Source: Gammaproteobacteria bacterium
GTDB taxonomy: Bacteria > Pseudomonadota > Gammaproteobacteria > Pseudomonadales > JAUIET01
DNA length: 64,000 nt
Reading direction: 5' to 3'
Assembly (NCBI GenBank): GCA_030431775.1
Contig: JAUIHW010000012.1
Span: forward strand, 1 to 64,000
Below are positions 4,350 through 44,103 of this stretch, piece by piece (within the stretch, counting starts at the first letter, position 1; each line of letters opens with the position of its first letter). A model generated the notes under the pieces. It did not search any database. It worked only from the letters and a program-made list of their open reading frames with translations, and had not been told where the DNA came from. The position numbers and the translations under genes are program-made.

Positions 4350-4422
4350 AAGCTTAACTGGCCGACATGGTTGATCGTTAGTTGATCAGCTTAGTGAAAA
4401 TCTAGAAAATTACGCTAAATAA

Positions 4423-35051: not shown

Positions 35052-36086
35052 TCAGGTTTGCGCCATTAATTCAAACCGCCTCCACACCTGCTCTGCTGTC
35101 AGGCTGGCCAGGCAGGCCGCATCATCGCCGGGTCGATCAGGGAAGTCGCAACGTCTTCGATAGCAGGGTTGGCAGGAGAAACCCTGTGCCGGTAGCAGGT
35201 CGCTGGCAGGGCCGGTGGCGCCAATCAGTGCCGGGTCGGTCGGGCCGTATAGGGTCAAGGTTTTGTTGCCCAGTGCGGCCGACAAATGTGCCAGGCCGGT
35301 GTCCATGCAAATCGCCCCGGCGGATAGCTGCAAGAGCCTGGCAATACTGCTTAGGTTTAGTGCGGGTAATACAACGGCATTGTCTGAAACCGCGGCAATG
35401 TTCTCGGCCTGTTTCCGCTCATCCTCGGTACCCCAGGGCAACAGTACCTGGTAATTGCTTTCAGCGGCAAGTTTGCTCAGTGAGTACCAGTTAGCGACAG
35501 GCCAGGACTTGCTGGTCCAGCTGGCATTGTGGACAAACAGTAAAAAAGGCTGAGCGGGCGCCTGGTAACCGCGCAAGGTGAACTCTGTTCCGTTGATGCC
35601 GAAGTCCGGGGGACTGTTCGGTTCAGGGTACTCGAATATCTGTGCAAAAAGCTGGCGCCAGCGATCTATTGCAAGCTGTTGGCGGGGCACCGCATAGTGA
35701 TAGCGGTAGGCAAAGTGAGCTCCCCATTCGCGCACCCCATGCACATCGGGCCCGTGCGTTGGCCCTTTAGCAAGCGCGGTGACCAGAGCGCTTTTCAAAT
35801 TATTTTGCGCATCAATCACCGCGTCATAACGGCGGCTGCGCAGTTTCTTGTGGTAGCTTCTCAGCTCGCGCAGAGAGTTTGTAATGTGGCCACTGCTACG
35901 CCAGCGCCGGTGCGCGCTTTTCAGGACGCTGTCCACTGCCGGGTGCCAAGAGCAGATTTCTGCAAACTGTTCATCAACGGCCCAATCGAATCGCAGCCCG
36001 GCACGCTGTTGTTGCGCATCAGTCAGCGCCGGCAAGGCTTGTATCAGATCACCCATGGAGCTTAGCTTGACCAGAAGTACGTGCAC
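35052..36086 (-). CDS. waaC: ADP-heptose:LPS heptosyltransferase I
   Basis: 344 residues. Adds the first heptose to Kdo in the inner core. The start HVLLVKLSSMGDLIQALPALTDA and VIDAQNNLKSAL match WaaC, and FLLFVHNASWTSKSWP and CMDTGLAHLSAALG are in the C-terminal half. It is convergent with waaF and shares a 1-bp junction with the upstream oxygenase gene. In pseudomonads waaC follows waaF on the same strand, so a local inversion seems to have occurred here. Confidence 0.94.
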   Translation of the reverse strand: MHVLLVKLSSMGDLIQALPALTDAQQQRAGLRFDWAVDEQFAEICSWHPAVDSVLKSAHRRWRSSGHITNSLRELRSYHKKLRSRRYDAVIDAQNNLKSALVTALAKGPTHGPDVHGVREWGAHFAYRYHYAVPRQQLAIDRWRQLFAQIFEYPEPNSPPDFGINGTEFTLRGYQAPAQPFLLFVHNASWTSKSWPVANWYSLSKLAAESNYQVLLPWGTEDERKQAENIAAVSDNAVVLPALNLSSIARLLQLSAGAICMDTGLAHLSAALGNKTLTLYGPTDPALIGATGPASDLLPAQGFSCQPCYRRRCDFPDRPGDDAACLASLTAEQVWRRFELMAQT

Positions 36087-36703
36087 TAGCGACTCGTAAA
36101 CAGGCGCTTAGCTCTGGCACTCAGGCCGTGCAGCAGGCTGTGTTTGCTTTCTGCGGAGTTACTGACCAGGTAGTTCAGTTGCAGGGACAGGCGCTTTCCT
36201 TCTATTGGGGTATGTCCATGCCAGCAATCTGGGGTAACCAGGAAACCCAGCATGGTGCCGGCTAGGGGTGCGATTTCTTTTACCGGCCGGTCCAGGCTGT
36301 CCGGGCTGTCGAGCAGTCGCAGGCGCCCACCTTTGGCCGTCCATTCCCGGTTGAAATAAAGCAGCACCGTCAGTAGTTTGCTGCGTGAGTCGGTGTGTAC
36401 GCGACCGTCTTTATGGCGCATCATCCCGCGAACCGTGGTAACCACGGGTCGGCCCTCAAGGTCTATAGCGAATTTGCGTTCCATCAATGAACGGAAGGCA
36501 TCGCCTTCGAGCACATTCAGTAATTCAAGAAAGCGCGGCCCGGCGCTGGTCTGTTGCACAGGGATACTGCCGCCGGCATCAATAGCCGGGAAATCCTGCA
36601 GAACGCCATTCAGTGCGTCATCGAGCAGGCTGTCGGTGACGAGAAAGTGGGGGAAGGGCTGTTGTTCCAGACGCGCCTCAGCTATTGCCGCCATATTTAA
36701 CAT
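36086..36703 (-). CDS. 2-oxoglutarate/Fe(II) oxygenase in the LPS locus
   Basis: 205 residues. The iron triad can be read as H103-x-D105 (RVHTDSRSK) plus H162 or H164 in CWHGHTPIEG, and R171 would bind 2-oxoglutarate. VLLYFNREW and GGRLRLLDSPDS are typical of the prolyl-hydroxylase-like 2OG-Fe(II) group. There is no signal peptide, so it is cytoplasmic. Its position between waaC and an LpxL-type acyltransferase gene suggests hydroxylation of a lipid A or core sugar precursor, but the substrate is inference only. Confidence 0.8.
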   Translation of the reverse strand: MLNMAAIAEARLEQQPFPHFLVTDSLLDDALNGVLQDFPAIDAGGSIPVQQTSAGPRFLELLNVLEGDAFRSLMERKFAIDLEGRPVVTTVRGMMRHKDGRVHTDSRSKLLTVLLYFNREWTAKGGRLRLLDSPDSLDRPVKEIAPLAGTMLGFLVTPDCWHGHTPIEGKRLSLQLNYLVSNSAESKHSLLHGLSARAKRLFTSR

Positions 36704-36712
36704 GTCAGTAGC

Positions 36713-37681
36713 CTAACGATAGATCGCGCCATGGCGTTGTCCGGGCTGGCTTTTGAAACGTCGATGAAACCAGTAGTACTGCTCGGGCGCTACGCGAATG
36801 GATTCTTCCAGTAGTTGATTGACCGCACTGGCATCTAACACGTCATCTCCACTTGGAAAATTTTCCAGTGGACCGGTGATACGCAAGGTATAACCGGAAT
36901 CGTCTGCATGACGGTATTGCCCAAACATCAGGACTGGCGCATCTGACAATGCGGCCAGTTTCGCTGTTGCCGTAATGCTGGCGGCCCGTTGGCCAAAGAA
37001 CGGCGCAAACACCGAGTGTCGCTCGCCCATATCCTGGTCAGGCGCGTACCAGACGACACTGTTGTGCTTCAAAGCCCGGATGGTTTTACGCAATTCCGAA
37101 TTGCGAAAAATATTTAGGCTATGCCGTCGACGTCCTGTGTTCATCATGGCATTAAACAGCTCGTTCTTCTGCGGCTTGTACACAGCCGAGTAGGAAAAAA
37201 ACTTTTTGGCCAGAGCCGCACCCATATCCAAGGTGGAAAAGTGAGCGCCAAGCAGCAAAACACCGCGCTTTTTTGCGCGTGCCTCATTCAGTCGGTCCAG
37301 CCCGGAGATTTCAACAAGCGGGTACAATCGCTCTTCATTGGCCCACCAGGCCAGGGCAGTTTCCACCAGTCCGGCACCATAGTTTTCAAACACCCGGAAA
37401 CAAAATCGCTGCCGTTGTTGAGCATCCAGCTCCGGAAAACACAGCTGTAAATTGACGAGAGTGATGTGTTTGCGCCGGCTGGGCAGCAGGTAGAGAAGGC
37501 CACCCAACACTTTGCCCAGGCGTACGTTGTAGGGAAAGGGTAACAAGCTCATCAACCAGAGCAGGGCCATACCCGCAGCGATTGGCCAGTTGCGTGGACG
37601 TAACAGCAGGTGCTGCCAGCCTGCTTCCGGGTGGTCGACACTGGGGTGCTTGCGCTCGCTGGCCGGTGTGCTGTTGCTCAT
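36713..37681 (-). CDS. Lipid A late acyltransferase, LpxL/HtrB type
   Basis: 322 residues from the ATG at 37681 (MSNSTPASE); the longer frame to 37855 runs into the divergent glycosyltransferase gene. A membrane anchor lies near residues 35-50. The catalytic HxxxxD is in GAHFSTLDMGAAL, with YKPQKNELFNAMM, WYAPDQDMG and FGQRAASITATAKLA matching the family, and a C-terminal PEQYYWFHRRFK. It adds a secondary acyl chain to Kdo2-lipid IVA at the inner membrane. LpxL versus LpxM cannot be decided here. Confidence 0.92.
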   Translation of the reverse strand: MSNSTPASERKHPSVDHPEAGWQHLLLRPRNWPIAAGMALLWLMSLLPFPYNVRLGKVLGGLLYLLPSRRKHITLVNLQLCFPELDAQQRQRFCFRVFENYGAGLVETALAWWANEERLYPLVEISGLDRLNEARAKKRGVLLLGAHFSTLDMGAALAKKFFSYSAVYKPQKNELFNAMMNTGRRRHSLNIFRNSELRKTIRALKHNSVVWYAPDQDMGERHSVFAPFFGQRAASITATAKLAALSDAPVLMFGQYRHADDSGYTLRITGPLENFPSGDDVLDASAVNQLLEESIRVAPEQYYWFHRRFKSQPGQRHGAIYR

Positions 37682-37771
37682 GGGTCGTGCGTAAATCCGG
37701 CATTGTAACAAGAAGGCGCCAAGTCGAACGTGTACTATTGCAAGCTTTGCCGGGGGGCCCAGAGTACAGCT

Positions 37772-38830
37772 ATGCAACGTGTACTGATCATCATAATGCG
37801 TCATCACGGCGATGTACTGCTGACGACTCCGGTGATTCAGGCATTGCAGCGGCATTGTCCAGGCAGTGAAGTGGACGTGCTGGTTTACTCCTATGCGGCC
37901 GAGTTACTTGAACACCATGCTGGCGTGAGCAATATTCACGTTGTTGACCGCGCTTGGAAAAAAGCAGGGCTGGCGGCCTTACTGCGAGCAGAGTGGCAGC
38001 TTCTTCGCCGTTTGCGCCGTCGCCGTTTCGATACGGTACTTGCGCTGACCGATCAGTGGCGCTGCGCAATGCTGGCCTGGCTATTACAACCCAAGCAGTC
38101 ACTGGCACTAAGCTACCCGAAACGTCAGGGCAGTCTGCTCTGGCGACGCAGCTTCAAGGAGGACTATGCTGCGGTTCCGCATCGGCATATGATTGATTTG
38201 CACCTCGACAGCTTGCGCAGGCTCGGGCTGGTCCTCGATGAGCATGACCGAAAAGTCGGCCTGGTGGTACCTGAGCCGGCAAGACAAGGCGTCCGAAAAC
38301 GCCTTGAGGCACTCGGGGTGGGCGAACACCCTTTCATACTCGTACACCCGGCGTCGCGAGGTCGCCACAAATGCTGGCAGAGCGAAAAATACGCCGAAGT
38401 CATTAATCGATTGCTTGCGAACGGCTGGCGCGTGCTGCTCAGTGGTGCGCCCGATGCCCAAGAGCAGGCGCTTCTGGACAGTATTGTGGCGCAGTGCCCG
38501 CAGGCACCGCACAACCTCTGCGGGGAATTGAGCTTGTTGGAGCTCGCGGCGCTGATAGAGCGCGCCAGTGTACTGCTCTGTGTTGATTCAGTGCCCATGC
38601 ACATGGCGGCCGCGCTGGATACGCCGTTGGTGGCATTGTTCGGGCCTACCGAAGAGCGCCAATGGGGGCCGGCCAGCTCTCGGGCCAGAGTGCTGGCGAG
38701 CGCACGCGATTGCCGGCCCTGCCTGCGTCAGGGCTGTGGCGGCTCCGGATTCAGCGAATGCCTGGCAGACCTGGCTGCTGACGAGGTTGTGCTCGCTCTC
38801 AATGCGGCGACTTCAGTTAAGTTTACCTAA
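37772..38830 (+). CDS. GT9 heptosyltransferase, WaaQ-like
   Basis: 352 residues from the ATG at 37772 (MQRVLIIIMRHHGDVLLTTP). The HHGDVLLTTPV start, DRAWKKAGL, the AEWQLLRRLR stretch and LTDQWRCAMLAWLL resemble WaaQ (heptosyltransferase III), while HPASRGRHKCW and CVDSVPMHMAAALDTPLVALFGPT are common to GT9. It probably adds a side-branch heptose to the core. The C-terminal CRPCLRQGCGG cysteine cluster is also family-like. Divergent from the acyltransferase gene across 90 bp. Confidence 0.87.
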   Translation: MQRVLIIIMRHHGDVLLTTPVIQALQRHCPGSEVDVLVYSYAAELLEHHAGVSNIHVVDRAWKKAGLAALLRAEWQLLRRLRRRRFDTVLALTDQWRCAMLAWLLQPKQSLALSYPKRQGSLLWRRSFKEDYAAVPHRHMIDLHLDSLRRLGLVLDEHDRKVGLVVPEPARQGVRKRLEALGVGEHPFILVHPASRGRHKCWQSEKYAEVINRLLANGWRVLLSGAPDAQEQALLDSIVAQCPQAPHNLCGELSLLELAALIERASVLLCVDSVPMHMAAALDTPLVALFGPTEERQWGPASSRARVLASARDCRPCLRQGCGGSGFSECLADLAADEVVLALNAATSVKFT

Positions 38831-38942: not shown

Positions 38943-38971
38943 TTGGCAATTTGCCCAATAACAGGTAGAAT
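38943..38971 (+). promoter_or_regulatory. Near-consensus sigma70 promoter of the GT4 cluster
   Basis: TTGGCA (38943-38948), a 17-bp spacer, TAGAAT (38966-38971). Each hexamer matches five of six consensus bases. The start of transcription would be near 38978, leaving a 34-nt leader before the ATG at 39012. It makes the GT4 cluster its own transcription unit. Confidence 0.7.
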
Positions 38972-39011: not shown

Positions 39012-40340
39012 ATGACCCCAATCGAGCTGTCCAACGCCGCTACAGCGCCCGAACGCTTTCGGCGCCCTTTGCGCATTTGCCTGTTGAGCTATCGGAGTGC
39101 GCCATTCGGTGGCGGCCAGGGAATTTACGTCCGCTATCTCAGTAAGGCACTGACTGAAGCCGGGCACGAAGTGGATGTGGTCTCAGGAGAACCCTACCCC
39201 CATTTGGTGGACGGCGTCCGTTTAATCAAATTGCCCGGCCTTAATCTGTTCGAAAACGGGCTGCACTCACTGCGGCCACGACATTTACGTTCCTGGGCCA
39301 ATATTGTGGAATGGTGCAGCAAGCTCAGTGGTGGCTTTGCAGAACCATATGCATTTGGCAGGCGTGCGGCGGCTTTCCTCAAAGAGCACGGGGCGAAATA
39401 CGACCTTGTGCATGATAACCAAAGCCTGGCCTGGGGTTTGCTGGACATACAGAAGCAGGGCCTGCCATTGCTGGTCACCATACACCACCCGATTCAGCAC
39501 GACCTGAAACTGGCGCTAGAGGCGGCCAGGAACGCCTGGCAACGGTTACTGGTTCGCCGCTGGCATTCGTTTCTGGGTATGCAGACTCGTGTTGTCAGAC
39601 AGTTGCAGCACATCACAACCGTGTCGGAATGTTCGCGCCAGGATATTGTTGAGGCGTTCAGCATTGACGCAGAGCGGGTTCGGGTCATTCCTTGCGGCAT
39701 TGACACGGAGGTGTTTCGCCCGCTGCCTGAAATAGAACGCAAGCCACGGCAATTGCTGGCGACGGTGTCGGCCGATCAACCGCTCAAAGGCCTGCACTAT
39801 CTGCTGTATGCGCTGCGAGATCTGCGGGCCGAATTTCCCGATCTCAGCCTGACGGTGGTCGGCAAACCCAAGCCGGGCGGCGCGACTGAACGTCTGGTGC
39901 GCAGGCTTGGCCTGGGCAATGAACTGCAATTCGTACATGGCATCTCCACTGCAGAGTTAGTGCGGTTGTATGCCGAAACCACGCTGGCTGTAGTGCCGTC
40001 ACTCTATGAAGGCTTTGGACTGCCCGCCGGAGAGGCATTGTCCTGCGGTACCCCGCTGGTCAGCACCAACGCTGGAGCGTTGCCAGAGGTAGTCGGTGAT
40101 GCAGCACTCAGCGTTGAGCCGGGCTCCAGCCGTGCGCTGCAGGCAGCGATTCGCCGTTTGCTGCTGGATGAGGGCTTACGAACCGAGCTTTCCCGAGCCG
40201 GCCGTGCGCGTATAGAGGAGCGTTTTAGTTGGGCGGTGACAGCACAGCAATTATGTGAGTTTTATCACGATATCCTGTTGCAGCACGACGAGCCGGCCGA
40301 CATCGAAGCGGACCCGGAACTGGCCCATGCAAACAGTTGA
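39012..40340 (+). CDS. GT4-family glycosyltransferase
   Basis: 442 residues from the ATG at 39012; an upstream in-frame start at 38943 precedes the promoter and is rejected. GT-B fold retaining transferase: acceptor-side FGGGQGIYVRYLSKALTEAG, VHDNQSLAWG, then the donor half with CGIDTEVFRP, LTVVGKPKPGG and the E-x7-E motif in YEGFGLPAGEALSCGTPLVS. No signal peptide. Donor and acceptor are unknown. It overlaps the methyltransferase gene start by 14 bp, so the two are probably coupled. Confidence 0.9.
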   Translation: MTPIELSNAATAPERFRRPLRICLLSYRSAPFGGGQGIYVRYLSKALTEAGHEVDVVSGEPYPHLVDGVRLIKLPGLNLFENGLHSLRPRHLRSWANIVEWCSKLSGGFAEPYAFGRRAAAFLKEHGAKYDLVHDNQSLAWGLLDIQKQGLPLLVTIHHPIQHDLKLALEAARNAWQRLLVRRWHSFLGMQTRVVRQLQHITTVSECSRQDIVEAFSIDAERVRVIPCGIDTEVFRPLPEIERKPRQLLATVSADQPLKGLHYLLYALRDLRAEFPDLSLTVVGKPKPGGATERLVRRLGLGNELQFVHGISTAELVRLYAETTLAVVPSLYEGFGLPAGEALSCGTPLVSTNAGALPEVVGDAALSVEPGSSRALQAAIRRLLLDEGLRTELSRAGRARIEERFSWAVTAQQLCEFYHDILLQHDEPADIEADPELAHANS

Positions 40341-41055
40341 TTTTGAGCGGGTTGGGCTGAATGCCGGCGATCTCGTGCTGGATCTTGGCTGTGGCGAAGG
40401 CCGGCATGTCATTTCGGCGTATTTTACAGATGGGGTGCAGTCCGTCGGCGTGGATCTGTGTCATGCTGACCTGCTAACCACGCGGGAAAAATTTTCTGAG
40501 CTGTGCCAGGCTGAACAGGCGCAAATTCCATCTAACAGTCGTTTTTTGCTGGCACAGAGTAACGCCTTGAAACTGCCATTTGCAGATCACTGCTTTGATA
40601 AAGTGATTTGCTCTGAGGTTCTCGAACATATTGACGACTACGAATCGGTGATCGTAGAGATAGAACGTGTGCTCAAGCCCGGCGGAGAGTTTGTTGCCAG
40701 CGTGCCGCGATTTTGGCCGGAATGGTTGTGTTGGGCCTTGAGTGACGAATACCACGCCAATGAAGGTGGTCATCTGCGTATTTTCAAAGCGGCTGATTTG
40801 CGCAGTCGTATCGAACGGGCGGGATTCCGTTTTTTCAGTCGGCACTGGGCGCACGCCCTGCATTCACCTTACTGGTGGCTGCAATGTCTGTTCTGGAACA
40901 ACAAGGAGAACTCCGTGCTGGTACGAGCGTATCAGCGGTTTTTGGAGTGGGACATTATCGATAAACCCTGGCTGACGCGCGCGCTGGAAACTGTATTGAA
41001 TCCTGTCATGGGTAAAAGTGTTGTGCTGTATTTTAGAAAAGGAGATACCGGATGA
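40327..41055 (+). CDS. Class I SAM methyltransferase, UbiE/UbiG-like
   Basis: 242 residues from the ATG at 40327 (MQTVDFERVGL), nested 14 bp into the GT4 gene. SAM motif I is VLDLGCGEGRHVIS, an acidic VGVDLCHAD follows, then the FDKVICSEVLEHI and VLKPGGEFVASVPRFWPE motifs. The C-terminal half has aromatic stretches (HSPYWWLQCLFW) that may bind a lipid or large substrate. Its ATGA overlap with the next gene ties it to the toroid protein. Substrate unknown; methylation of a glycan or lipid carrier is a guess. Confidence 0.86.
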   Translation: MQTVDFERVGLNAGDLVLDLGCGEGRHVISAYFTDGVQSVGVDLCHADLLTTREKFSELCQAEQAQIPSNSRFLLAQSNALKLPFADHCFDKVICSEVLEHIDDYESVIVEIERVLKPGGEFVASVPRFWPEWLCWALSDEYHANEGGHLRIFKAADLRSRIERAGFRFFSRHWAHALHSPYWWLQCLFWNNKENSVLVRAYQRFLEWDIIDKPWLTRALETVLNPVMGKSVVLYFRKGDTG

Positions 41056-42134
41056 GTGGGCTGTACCTGTCCCGCGGGCTGTATCCCAGCGAGTACCTGC
41101 GCTCCACTGTGGATTATATTCTTTCCTGCCAGCAGGCAGACGGTTCAATTCCGTGGTTCGAAGGCAGCTATGCCGACCCTTGGGACCACGTGGAATCCGC
41201 AATGGCTCTCAGTATCAGCGGTGAATATCAGGCCGCAGAGCGGGCGTATCAGTGGTTGCAGGACTGCCAACTTCAAGACGGTAGCTGGTGGGCGGCTTAC
41301 CAGAACGGCAAGGTGCAAAACGACGAGCGCCGTGAGACTAATTTTGTTGCCTATATAGCGACCGGCGTCTGGCACCATTATCTGATTACCCGCAAGCGGG
41401 ATTTTCTGGCGCACTTCTGGCCAACGGTGAGCGCGGCTATAGAATTTGTATTAACGCAGCAAACCAGTTACGGTGAAATCAATTGGGCTGTGGATCGCGA
41501 TGGCAATTCCAAAGAAGACGCACTGGTAACCGGGTGTTCTTCAATTTATAAAAGTCTGGAGTGCGCATATAACATAGCCACTCAGCTTGGAATTGACAAA
41601 GAGGACTGGCTGGAGGCACGGCAGCGCCTCGGTACGGCCTTACGTCAGCATCCCGAACGCTTTGACCGAACCTGGGAGAGCAAGGCACGCTATTCGATGG
41701 ATTGGTTCTATCCAGTGCTGACCGGTGCTATTCCCAAAAATCAAGCGGCCGCCCACTTGCAAAAGCGATGGCGTACTTTCGTCGAGCCGGGCCTCGGCTG
41801 TCGTTGTGTGTCGGATGAGCCCTGGGTCACGGTCGCGGAAAGTTGCGAGTTGGTGATGGCCTTGCTGGCGGCGGGTGAACATGCCAAGGCGGTTACCTTA
41901 TACAGCTGGCTGCATCAATGGCGGGACGATGATGGTTCATTCTGGACAGGTTATCAGTTCTCATTGGATATTTTGTGGCCTGAGGAACGTCCAACATGGA
42001 CGGCGGCGGCCATTATTCTGGCGGCCGACGCGCTTACCGAACATACGGCAGCGGCACGGCTGTTTACCCGGGTGTCGTTGCTTGAAGAGCCCCTGCCGCG
42101 TGTTGTGCCCGTGTCAGCCGATTCGGCGCAATAA
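41052..42134 (+). CDS. Alpha/alpha-toroid protein with squalene-cyclase/prenyltransferase-like repeats
   Basis: 360 residues. Three QW-like repeats are visible: SCQQADGSIPWF (26-36), DCQLQDGSWWAAY (71-83) and WRDDDGSFWTGY (290-301), each after a helix, with more degenerate helical pairs between. This fold is shared by terpene cyclases, prenyltransferase beta subunits and some glycosidases. The DxDD motif of squalene-hopene cyclase is not evident, and the protein is about half the length of such cyclases. No signal peptide or membrane span. It may bind or modify a polyprenyl-linked or glycan substrate made with the GT4 and methyltransferase. I do not know a characterised homologue. Confidence 0.7.
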   Translation: MSGLYLSRGLYPSEYLRSTVDYILSCQQADGSIPWFEGSYADPWDHVESAMALSISGEYQAAERAYQWLQDCQLQDGSWWAAYQNGKVQNDERRETNFVAYIATGVWHHYLITRKRDFLAHFWPTVSAAIEFVLTQQTSYGEINWAVDRDGNSKEDALVTGCSSIYKSLECAYNIATQLGIDKEDWLEARQRLGTALRQHPERFDRTWESKARYSMDWFYPVLTGAIPKNQAAAHLQKRWRTFVEPGLGCRCVSDEPWVTVAESCELVMALLAAGEHAKAVTLYSWLHQWRDDDGSFWTGYQFSLDILWPEERPTWTAAAIILAADALTEHTAAARLFTRVSLLEEPLPRVVPVSADSAQ

Positions 42135-42728
42135 GCCCAGAGTATTAACCACTTCAATTTCGCTGTACAGACCGGACGCGAGCGCCAGACGATAGATGGT
42201 GATCGGTGCCTGACCGCCTGCTGCAGGGTCTGGGAACAGGTCGTGGATCGCAAGAATGCCGCCTTGCCTGATGTGCCCGGCCCAGCTGCGGTAATCCGCC
42301 ATCGCGGCTTCCATGCTATGACCGCCGTCAATGAACACCATCGCCAATGGAGTGCTCCAGTACTTAGCTGCCGTCGCGGAATCACTGACTACCGGTACCA
42401 CAAAACTTTCCAGATCGGCACGGCGCAAAGTGTTCCGAAAAGCACGAAAACTGTCCATCTGCTGGTGCTCGGCATCGAACAGACTGGGGTCGTGGTATTC
42501 CTCGCCCTGCTGATGTTCTTCCGAACCTCGGTGATGGTCGACTGCATACAGCTGCGAGCCGAACTCGCGGCATGCCTGGCCGAGGTAGACAGTTGATTTT
42601 CCGCAATAACTGCCCACCTCGAGGCATGGCCCCAGGGGAGCCACCTCGCTCGCGTAGCGAAACAGAGCCTCGCCTTCGTCCGCGGCGAGAAAGCCCTTTA
42701 CCGAATCAATGTCTATGGGTAGCTGCAT
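42114..42728 (-). CDS. Class I SAM methyltransferase, Methyltransf_24 type
   Basis: 204 residues. CLEVGSYCGKSTVYLGQA is a SAM motif I of the CmcI/Methyltransf_24 kind, and MVFIDGGHSMEAAMADYRSW with GGILAIHDLFPD is the matching later block. This subfamily often O-methylates sugars or small molecules. The gene is convergent with the toroid gene; their 3' ends overlap by 21 bp, so transcripts would be antisense to each other. It belongs to the GT4 cluster by position only. Confidence 0.82.
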   Translation of the reverse strand: MQLPIDIDSVKGFLAADEGEALFRYASEVAPLGPCLEVGSYCGKSTVYLGQACREFGSQLYAVDHHRGSEEHQQGEEYHDPSLFDAEHQQMDSFRAFRNTLRRADLESFVVPVVSDSATAAKYWSTPLAMVFIDGGHSMEAAMADYRSWAGHIRQGGILAIHDLFPDPAAGGQAPITIYRLALASGLYSEIEVVNTLGLLRRIG

Positions 42729-42831: not shown

Positions 42832-44103
42832 ATGCTGATAATTTATAGCCTGTGCCTGTATCTGGTAACGCCGTTGCTGGTCGGGTTTCTGTGGTTGCGC
42901 AGCTTGCGTGCCCCGGAATACCGCCAGCGTATCCTGGAGCGGTTTGGCATTCTTCCGCCGGGTTTGGACAGTGGCTATATCTGGCTGCATTCGGTGTCGG
43001 TCGGGGAAACGGTTGCTGTGGCGCCACTGGCTCGGTTGCTTCAAAAGCGCTATCCCGGGAAGCGATTGTTGGTCACCACGATGACCCCGACCGGCTCAGA
43101 TCAGGTTCAGCGCAGCTTTTCAGGGACGGTGGACCATGTTTACGCACCCTATGACCTGCCAGGCAGCGTACGGCGCTTTCTGGACCGGACCCGGCCAAGT
43201 ATTTGCATCATTATGGAAACCGAGCTGTGGCCTAATGTGCTCCAGCAGTGTGACCGGCGCGGCATACCGACGGTGCTGATCAATGCGCGCCTGTCTGCTG
43301 GTTCGGCAGCCGGCTACGCCCGGGTTGCTGGCATCGCCAACTTGATGATGAGCAAATTGGATGCCGTTGCCGTTCAGCATGCGAGCGACGGTCAGCGATT
43401 TGTCGATCTGGGTTTGGCGCCGGGAAAACTGCAAATCACTGGCAGTATCAAGTTCGATCACGACATAGCGCCCGAGGTGCGCGAGGCAACGACCCGCTTG
43501 CGTCATGAATGGCAGGGAGCAAGCAAACGGCCGGTCTGGATTGCCGCCAGCACTCATTTGGGCGAAGATGAAATCATTCTGCAGGCCCACCAGTTGTTGC
43601 TGGATCAGGGCCTGGCGGCTCTGCTGATACTGGTTCCCCGCCATCCTGAGCGTTTCGAGGATGTGTATCGACTGTGTGATCAGGCGGGCATGCAGGTGTC
43701 ACGGCGCAGTGCCAGGCAGCCGGTGGCGAGCGACACGCAGGTGGTGTTAGGTGACACCATGGGAGAGTTGGCTGCGTTGTACGGCGCTTGCGATATTGCC
43801 TTTGTCGGTGGAAGCCTGGTGCCAAGGGGAGGCCATAATCCGATAGAGCCGGCAGCATGGGGCCTGCCGGTACTCACCGGGCCACACATGTTCAATTTTC
43901 TGGACATCACCGAGCAGTTAAAGGAACGCGGCGGTTTGAAGGAGGTGCACAACGCGGAACAGATTGCAGCTGGCGTGCAGTCGATATTGACCGACTCGAA
44001 AGCCCACGCCGAGGCGGGTGCCGCCAATCACGCAGTGGTTGAGGAGAACCGCGGCGCGACCGAGCGCCAGCTTGCCATTATCGACGGGTTTCTATCGGGG
44101 TAA
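42832..44103 (+). CDS. waaA: 3-deoxy-D-manno-octulosonic acid (Kdo) transferase
   Basis: 423 residues. Adds Kdo to lipid IVA at the inner membrane. A short N-terminal membrane anchor (LIIYSLCLYLVTPLLVGFLW) precedes the GT30 N-domain with WLHSVSVGETVAVAPL, whose Glu aligns with the catalytic base. ETELWPNVLQQC and INARLSAGSA follow, and the C-domain has VWIAASTHLGEDEIIL, LVPRHPERF, FVGGSLVPRGGHNPIEPAAWG and GPHMFNF. Convergent with tolC across 31 bp with no obvious terminator. Confidence 0.96.
   Translation: MLIIYSLCLYLVTPLLVGFLWLRSLRAPEYRQRILERFGILPPGLDSGYIWLHSVSVGETVAVAPLARLLQKRYPGKRLLVTTMTPTGSDQVQRSFSGTVDHVYAPYDLPGSVRRFLDRTRPSICIIMETELWPNVLQQCDRRGIPTVLINARLSAGSAAGYARVAGIANLMMSKLDAVAVQHASDGQRFVDLGLAPGKLQITGSIKFDHDIAPEVREATTRLRHEWQGASKRPVWIAASTHLGEDEIILQAHQLLLDQGLAALLILVPRHPERFEDVYRLCDQAGMQVSRRSARQPVASDTQVVLGDTMGELAALYGACDIAFVGGSLVPRGGHNPIEPAAWGLPVLTGPHMFNFLDITEQLKERGGLKEVHNAEQIAAGVQSILTDSKAHAEAGAANHAVVEENRGATERQLAIIDGFLSG

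Follow-up and report, generated by a model that had tools for sequence, protein, structure and literature searches.

Here we describe a four-gene set within a 64,000-nucleotide stretch of DNA (the window; positions 1 to 64,000 of contig JAUIHW010000012.1, assembly GCA_030431775.1), which comes from a 4.67-Mb draft gammaproteobacterial genome (G000) whose family holds one further genome in our sampled set. The set comprises genes for a GT4 glycosyltransferase, a class I S-adenosylmethionine (SAM) methyltransferase, an alpha/alpha-toroid protein and a second, convergent methyltransferase, named in Table 1 after their proposed counterparts. It lies inside the lipopolysaccharide (LPS) inner-core region, flanked by a heptosyltransferase III gene and waaA. 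The initial annotation, made from the sequence alone, had read these genes as a possible undescribed surface-glycan or glycolipid pathway. Its gene calls, strands, convergent methyltransferase and location, together with the overlaps of 14 bp (manT/meT3) and 4 bp (meT3/mmpH), all hold as described; a further overlap of 21 bp joins mmpH and meT1. Judged by homology, the genes are one-for-one counterparts of the actinobacterial cluster for 3-O-methylmannose polysaccharide (MMP), the assignment of meT3 being likely.

Table 1. Features of the four-gene locus and its flanks in the window
Feature	Position	Strand	Remarks
manT-like GT4 glycosyltransferase	39012-40340	+	442 aa
meT3-like class I SAM methyltransferase	40327-41055	+	242 aa from its ATG
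mmpH, (alpha/alpha)6-barrel MMP endomannosidase homologue (earlier "toroid")	41052-42134	+	360 aa
meT1, 1-O-methyltransferase homologue	42114-42728	-	204 aa, convergent with mmpH
Heptosyltransferase III gene, LPS inner core, flank outside the pathway	37730-38830	+	TIGR02201, 283.8 bits (cut-off 170.2)
waaA, Kdo transferase, flank	42832-44103	+	NF004388, 550 bits (cut-off 438)
Sigma-70-like promoter TTGGCA-17-TAGAAT	38943-38971	+	10/12 consensus matches; weak evidence

The toroid gives the clearest identification. In phmmer searches of PDB sequences it matched 7qsj_A with an E-value of 1.1e-97 over residues 9-343 of 360, and the next match stood at 0.0094. Entry 7QSJ is MmpH, the methylmannose polysaccharide hydrolase (PMC9883506). 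The toroid had been labeled squalene-cyclase-like, and this label could not be kept, since the protein scores below the cut-offs of both Pfam models concerned (21.4 bits against 26.5 for PF00432 and 12.5 bits against 26.1 for PF13243) and far under those of the NCBIfam cyclases. Squalene/hopene cyclases and prenyltransferases share alpha/alpha repeats with it, which accounts for the weak Pfam signal, but it falls under their curated cut-offs; a terpene cyclase or prenyltransferase was thus rejected in favor of a predicted MMP endomannosidase MmpH. No signal sequence was recognized by eye in the window protein. Placement of MmpH in CAZy family GH188 was also dropped, as GH188 is a sulfoquinovosidase family.

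PMC9883506 lists 11 catalytic or substrate-lining MmpH residues, and the window protein has every one of them unchanged. For comparison we used 80 named gammaproteobacterial loci (L032-L111), the best-scoring of 580 stretches encoding a relative and therefore biased towards the window's own kin. Ten of the 11 residues are kept in every one of them, among these D47, W49, D50, M215, Y219, E262, E265 and W315, while F102 is kept in 79/80. Substitutions appear in more distant copies, including 16 from an order of streamlined genomes described below: N101 is replaced by H in L116, L118, L119 and 5/16 streamlined copies, and F102, also by H, in L112, L118 and 5/16 streamlined copies; T163 has become A in L119 and, in 1/16 streamlined copies, S, while L112 has Y in place of W315. 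The M. hassiacum enzyme has two candidates for the catalytic acid (PMC9883506), and one of them, D50, is N in L112, L118 and L119. Because D47 stays D in these three copies, the alignment suggests that D47 is the catalytic acid of MmpH; in L123 this position is E.

For the glycosyltransferase the best match was 7qsg_A (E 3.8e-97, next 1.4e-25), which carries the PDB title D-inositol-3-phosphate glycosyltransferase and is nevertheless ManT (PMC9883506). The LPS core enzyme RfaG/WaaG shares with the window protein the GT4 fold and an LPS gene neighborhood, but its structure 2iv7 reached only 6.5e-8. Among the 25 best of 38 NCBIfam matches, no equivalog of a known LPS or exopolysaccharide GT4 enzyme attained its cut-off, and the earlier remark that the set matches no core-LPS step was borne out at curated cut-offs. 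Eight of ten listed ManT residues are kept (G15, H142, K240, E313, G314, F315, L317 and E321); of these, K240, E313 and E321 are important by mutation and H142 is conserved (PMC9883506).

The convergent methyltransferase belongs to Pfam Methyltransf_24 and matched 6g7d_A with an E-value of 1.6e-57 over 195 aligned residues, the next match being at 0.25. The 6g7d record is titled only "methyltransferase domain protein"; we take it to be MeT1, and on this footing the window protein is a predicted 1-O-methyltransferase MeT1. The middle methyltransferase (Methyltransf_11) found generic PDB matches only, with no mycobacterial pMeT3 among them. It stands directly upstream of mmpH in 80/80 named loci and is 44% identical to the copy in the cluster of the actinobacterium Nonomuraea gerenzanensis. 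This identity, together with its place between manT and mmpH, makes it a likely counterpart of the putative MMP 3-O-methyltransferase pMeT3.

Gene order points the same way. In 77/80 named loci mmpH is directly preceded by manT and meT3, and in the remaining three the contig breaks off before manT is reached. A convergent meT1 stands no more than 700 bp away in 57 loci, and in nine it lies 1.3-7.4 kb off. The full order manT>meT3>mmpH><meT1 is found in at least 54 of the 80 loci and in N. gerenzanensis, where meT1 is about 1.1 kb beyond mmpH in a part of the record without annotation. In mycobacteria the order, read from locus tags and hence without orientation, is manT, pmeT3, mmpH, meT1 in M. 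hassiacum (tags 04402-04405) and in M. avium (2755-2758) (PMC9883506).

The genes also travel together. Within 390 genomes of the window's order (mmpH counted at E <= 1e-3, seven weak meT1 matches of family f43 excluded), mmpH and meT1 were each found in 113, both in 112, either one alone in a single genome and neither in 276 (Fisher p 8e-97, uncorrected for relatedness). Of the two one-gene genomes, G246 is 70% complete and has mmpH as a fragment where a contig ends, and G206 is 88% complete, with meT1 at a contig edge. In wider samples, from which weak mmpH matches were set aside (G473, G539 and G709 in the class sample, G709 in the phylum sample), 12 of 369 genomes of the class matched, nine convincingly and with the window's own genome included, and 4 of 299 of the phylum, three convincingly. 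Eight loci outside the order were fetched, and six hold all four genes; in L118 and L123 no meT1 was seen in stretches reaching just 1.4 and 2.1 kb past mmpH. Two actinobacterial rows form one branch (100/100) within an unresolved fork of the tree, and 13 rows fail the composition test. With only these two rows, such a fork and such failures, we claim no direction of transfer between the phyla. The co-occurrence of mmpH and meT1, along with a gene order shared with an actinobacterium, supports the view of the initial annotation that the four genes are one unit.

With three of the four proteins having by far their best PDB match in MMP enzymes, we consider it highly probable that the set encodes an MMP-type pathway, a judgment on the type of pathway and not on mannose. 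It is built on observed homology, active-site residues, gene order, co-occurrence and host range. ManT, whose donor in mycobacteria is GDP-mannose (PMC9883506), would extend a short oligosaccharide by alpha-(1->4)-linked hexoses, MeT3 would methylate the added residues at O-3, and MeT1 would methylate the reducing-end 1-OH, so that the chain could not be attached to lipid or LPS. MmpH would cleave finished chains internally and release primers for new ones, which would make the pool self-copying. We expect the product to be a polymethylated polysaccharide of small size and partly hydrophobic character, located in the cytosol, which would bind long-chain acyl-CoA and buffer fatty-acyl traffic. 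For this organism we infer the enzyme activities, mannose as the sugar, the cytosolic location and the buffering of acyl chains; in lipid-consuming marine cells the polymer may act as an acyl-CoA buffer.

Several observations weigh against this reading, and some of them feed the rival explanations below. We know of no such product or activity from any gammaproteobacterium. The gene order of M. smegmatis is different (tags 6481 mmpH, 6482 meT1, 6483 pmeT3, 6484 manT; PMC9883506), and meT1 is missing from the fetched stretch in 14/80 named loci, some of which are ended by contig ends. At nine of the 14 (Zhongshania, Spongiibacter, Neomelitea) loss of meT1 was considered and rejected, as related genomes of family f23 carry it elsewhere; this holds for 17/17 such genomes with mmpH, among them a near-identical relative of locus L047, and in G290, for example, the distance is 56 kb.

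Further such observations concern the sugar. The same enzymatic logic might operate with another donor, for example UDP-glucose, at least in the streamlined order, and yield a polymethylated glycan that is not MMP; we hold this to be unlikely, yet credible. In the window ManT the two proposed guanine contacts are changed (L291 to I, D293 to T), and position 293 is not conserved elsewhere: it is T in 74/76 ManTs of the named loci and K, E, N, F or Q in 11 from the streamlined order, where L317 is also F or Y in 11/11, and D in Nonomuraea and L118. The contact of Asp293 with guanine was, however, derived by superposition, and the relevant section of PMC9883506 contains no mutant of this residue, whereas the window ManT keeps the residues matched to mannosyl contacts (E313, G314, F315 and L317) and its MmpH keeps the whole listed pocket.

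The donor genes give a similarly divided picture. We searched with TIGR01479, requiring E <= 1e-20 and coverage of the GDP-mannose pyrophosphorylase part. Only 5/29 streamlined genomes had such a match, five more matched at the isomerase end only and 19 not at all, so mannose is not assured everywhere. A PF00483 scan of three of these genomes left only GalU and MurU-like proteins in G419, and the same two plus GlmU in G669 and G1021. By model, GalU passes its cut-off in G419 and G669 and falls slightly short of it in G1021 (324.9 against 326.8 bits), and GlmU passes in G669 and G1021. Five MurU-like proteins of this order match the MurU model best, yet remain below its cut-off, and no protein tested reached that for mannose-1-phosphate guanylyltransferase. 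A MurU-like protein could nevertheless have switched substrate, and TIGR01479 is over cut-off in four carriers of the cluster (G001, G023, G040 and G401). An apparent absence from G000 was traced to a contig end cutting the gene: contig C8 breaks off 42 residues into a GDP-mannose pyrophosphorylase/phosphomannose isomerase (PMI) gene, the piece being 83% identical to the whole gene of a congener, and with this gene start in place the window's organism does possess the donor gene. As a separate observation, in both congeners this mannose-donor gene stands, in a curious pairing, beside a fatty-acid gene, fabA or fabA-like (congener, L172 949-2355, minus strand; G000, L183 2-127, minus strand, cut by the contig end).

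A role of the set in building or altering a surface glycan, as first proposed, or a part of LPS now appears improbable. Its position between the heptosyltransferase III gene and waaA would suit an LPS link, as would waaA or lpxL beside the cluster in 28/80 named loci (waaA alone in 27) and both of them in 11/11 long streamlined-order loci. The neighborhood of dTDP-rhamnose genes could be taken likewise: near manT, rmlB occurs in 37, rmlC in 36, rmlA in 36 and rmlD in 31 of the 80 loci, upstream of mmpH at medians of 3.2-5.7 kb, with one member per family confirmed by model. However, the enzyme to which MeT1 is homologous caps the chain at its reducing-end 1-OH, mycobacterial MMP resides inside the cell, and inspection by eye found no signal sequence in MmpH. 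Moreover, among the 40 listed neighbor families, mostly judged by eye, no polysaccharide exporter or O-antigen ligase was recognized, and the Nonomuraea locus has none of the tested LPS genes. A capped, self-recycling cytosolic polysaccharide fits these observations better than a surface glycan does. A catabolic set, in which MmpH (a hydrolase, as homologue of 7qsj) and its partners would degrade imported methylated mannosides, is scarcely plausible, with biosynthetic manT and meT3 adjoining mmpH and meT1 accompanying it as counted above, no uptake gene recognized by eye among the listed neighbor families, and a mycobacterial mmpH mutant that makes no MMP (PMC9883506).

The MMP-type cluster extends to a streamlined order, represented among others by G419, G563 and G669, with genomes of 0.7-1.8 Mb in four families and 30-36% G+C in the fetched stretches. 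Of its 151 sampled genomes 132 have mmpH and 130 meT1 (both 128, mmpH only four, meT1 only two, neither 17; one unlisted meT1-negative genome was taken as G1159). A second search, centered on G669, overlapped the first and gives no independent count. Among the 40 good genomes (>=90% complete, <=5% contaminated) each gene is present in 39, and G1036 lacks both; all four genes stand in the usual order in the 11/11 loci with long flanks (L117, L120, L121, L141-L148). That almost all good genomes of this small size retain mmpH and meT1 suggests a polymer of sufficient use to be kept as genomes shrink.

This order is probably SAR86, for which four families, mean estimated sizes of 1.05-1.66 Mb and 31-40% G+C are reported (PMC11582366). 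The probe SAR86-1245 matched exactly in 5/28 streamlined genomes, all of one family, and in 0/10 other genomes, its site in two checked genomes falling within the 16S gene at about position 1238. Against the assignment stand the 23/28 streamlined genomes without an exact match, which keep it an inference. SAR86 invests heavily in beta-oxidation, while in its CHAB-I-7 family fadB was not identifiable and copy numbers were not raised (PMC11582366); this family suits an acyl-CoA buffer less well. In the main text of PMC11582366, methylmannose, mannose, glycosyltransferase and methyltransferase are not mentioned.

Several features of the locus stand apart from this argument. The G+C content is 51-58% in the four genes and 52-60% in eleven measured neighbors. 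The cluster had been credited with its own near-consensus promoter; the site exists, but is weak evidence, as the stretch holds five promoter-like sites where its shuffles give 2.3 +/- 1.7. Among named records, the nearest that we found, with own-genome records possibly excluded, is an unclassified gammaproteobacterial metagenome-assembled genome (L032), whose mmpH is 81% identical. A tolC-like gene occurs in 36 named loci and a resistance-nodulation-division (RND)-type pump pair in six. Within the LPS inner-core stretch of the window, a 2-oxoglutarate (2OG)-Fe(II) oxygenase gene (36086-36703, minus strand) between waaC and lpxL is a possible candidate for a lipid A or core hydroxylase. The longest lpxL frame (36713-37855, minus strand) shares 126 bp with the beginning of the heptosyltransferase III frame, which diverges from it, and the true lpxL start is probably further in.

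The pathway thus cannot be called undescribed, as its enzymes have close homologues with an established part in making MMP (PMC9883506), although this role is neither an LPS nor an exopolysaccharide step. The mycobacterial cluster shares with the present one the four enzyme counterparts, the gene order of M. hassiacum, the MmpH active site and 8/10 ManT residues. It differs in that the hosts here are Gram-negative and bear LPS, the cluster is often beside waaA/lpxL, the guanine-contact position of ManT is changed, meT1 is unlinked in some lineages, and few streamlined genomes have a recognizable GDP-mannose pyrophosphorylase. Mycobacterial MMP consists of 11-14 alpha-(1->4)-linked 3-O-methylmannoses with a methyl aglycon (PMC9883506). 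A second mycobacterial polymer, 6-O-methylglucose lipopolysaccharide (MGLP), is likewise a cytosolic polymethylated polysaccharide proposed to bind acyl chains, but is based on glucose and made by other enzymes (PMC2674218). What is new is the host range, marine gammaproteobacteria, since the published cluster descriptions that we found concern actinobacteria only and present MMP as an actinobacterial product, mostly of mycobacteria. The available main text of PMC9883506 does not contain proteobacteria, gram-negative or pseudomon. Literature searches by enzyme name returned no gammaproteobacterial paper by title or abstract, and none was found on methylmannose together with marine Gammaproteobacteria or Halieaceae; subscription papers were outside these searches, so a prior report is possible. 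The set is a known pathway, rightly seen as one unit, in hosts for which the papers that we found do not describe it.

To our knowledge, gammaproteobacterial hosts are expected to lack type I fatty-acid synthase (FAS-I), mycolic acids and MGLP, the genes of the last not having been searched for. The two mycobacterial polymers, MMP and MGLP, are binders of acyl-CoA and of fatty acyl chains in vitro, and regulation of FAS-I has been proposed, while mutants of the MGLP pathway cast doubt on a role in vivo (PMC2674218). An M. smegmatis mmpH mutant, which has no MMP, grows more slowly at 15 °C, though not at 37 or 45 °C (PMC9883506). The disputed proposal that such polysaccharides regulate fatty-acid metabolism is hereby offered cultured LPS-bearing hosts, such as Litorivivens lipolytica, Seongchinamella unica and Zhongshania antarctica (loci L037, L045 and L047), in which it would be testable apart from mycolic acids and from MGLP. 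A much broader possibility, which we put forward with considerable reserve, is that cytosolic polysaccharides of this polymethylated, self-recycling type are a core feature of gammaproteobacteria abundant in the surface ocean, that the SAR86-like order uses a donor other than GDP-mannose, and that the polymers serve the traffic of acyl-CoA and lipid A, with lpxL and waaA alongside, in lipid-consuming cells. If this were true, the mycobacterial system would represent a single branch within a far wider system of acyl-carrier glycans.

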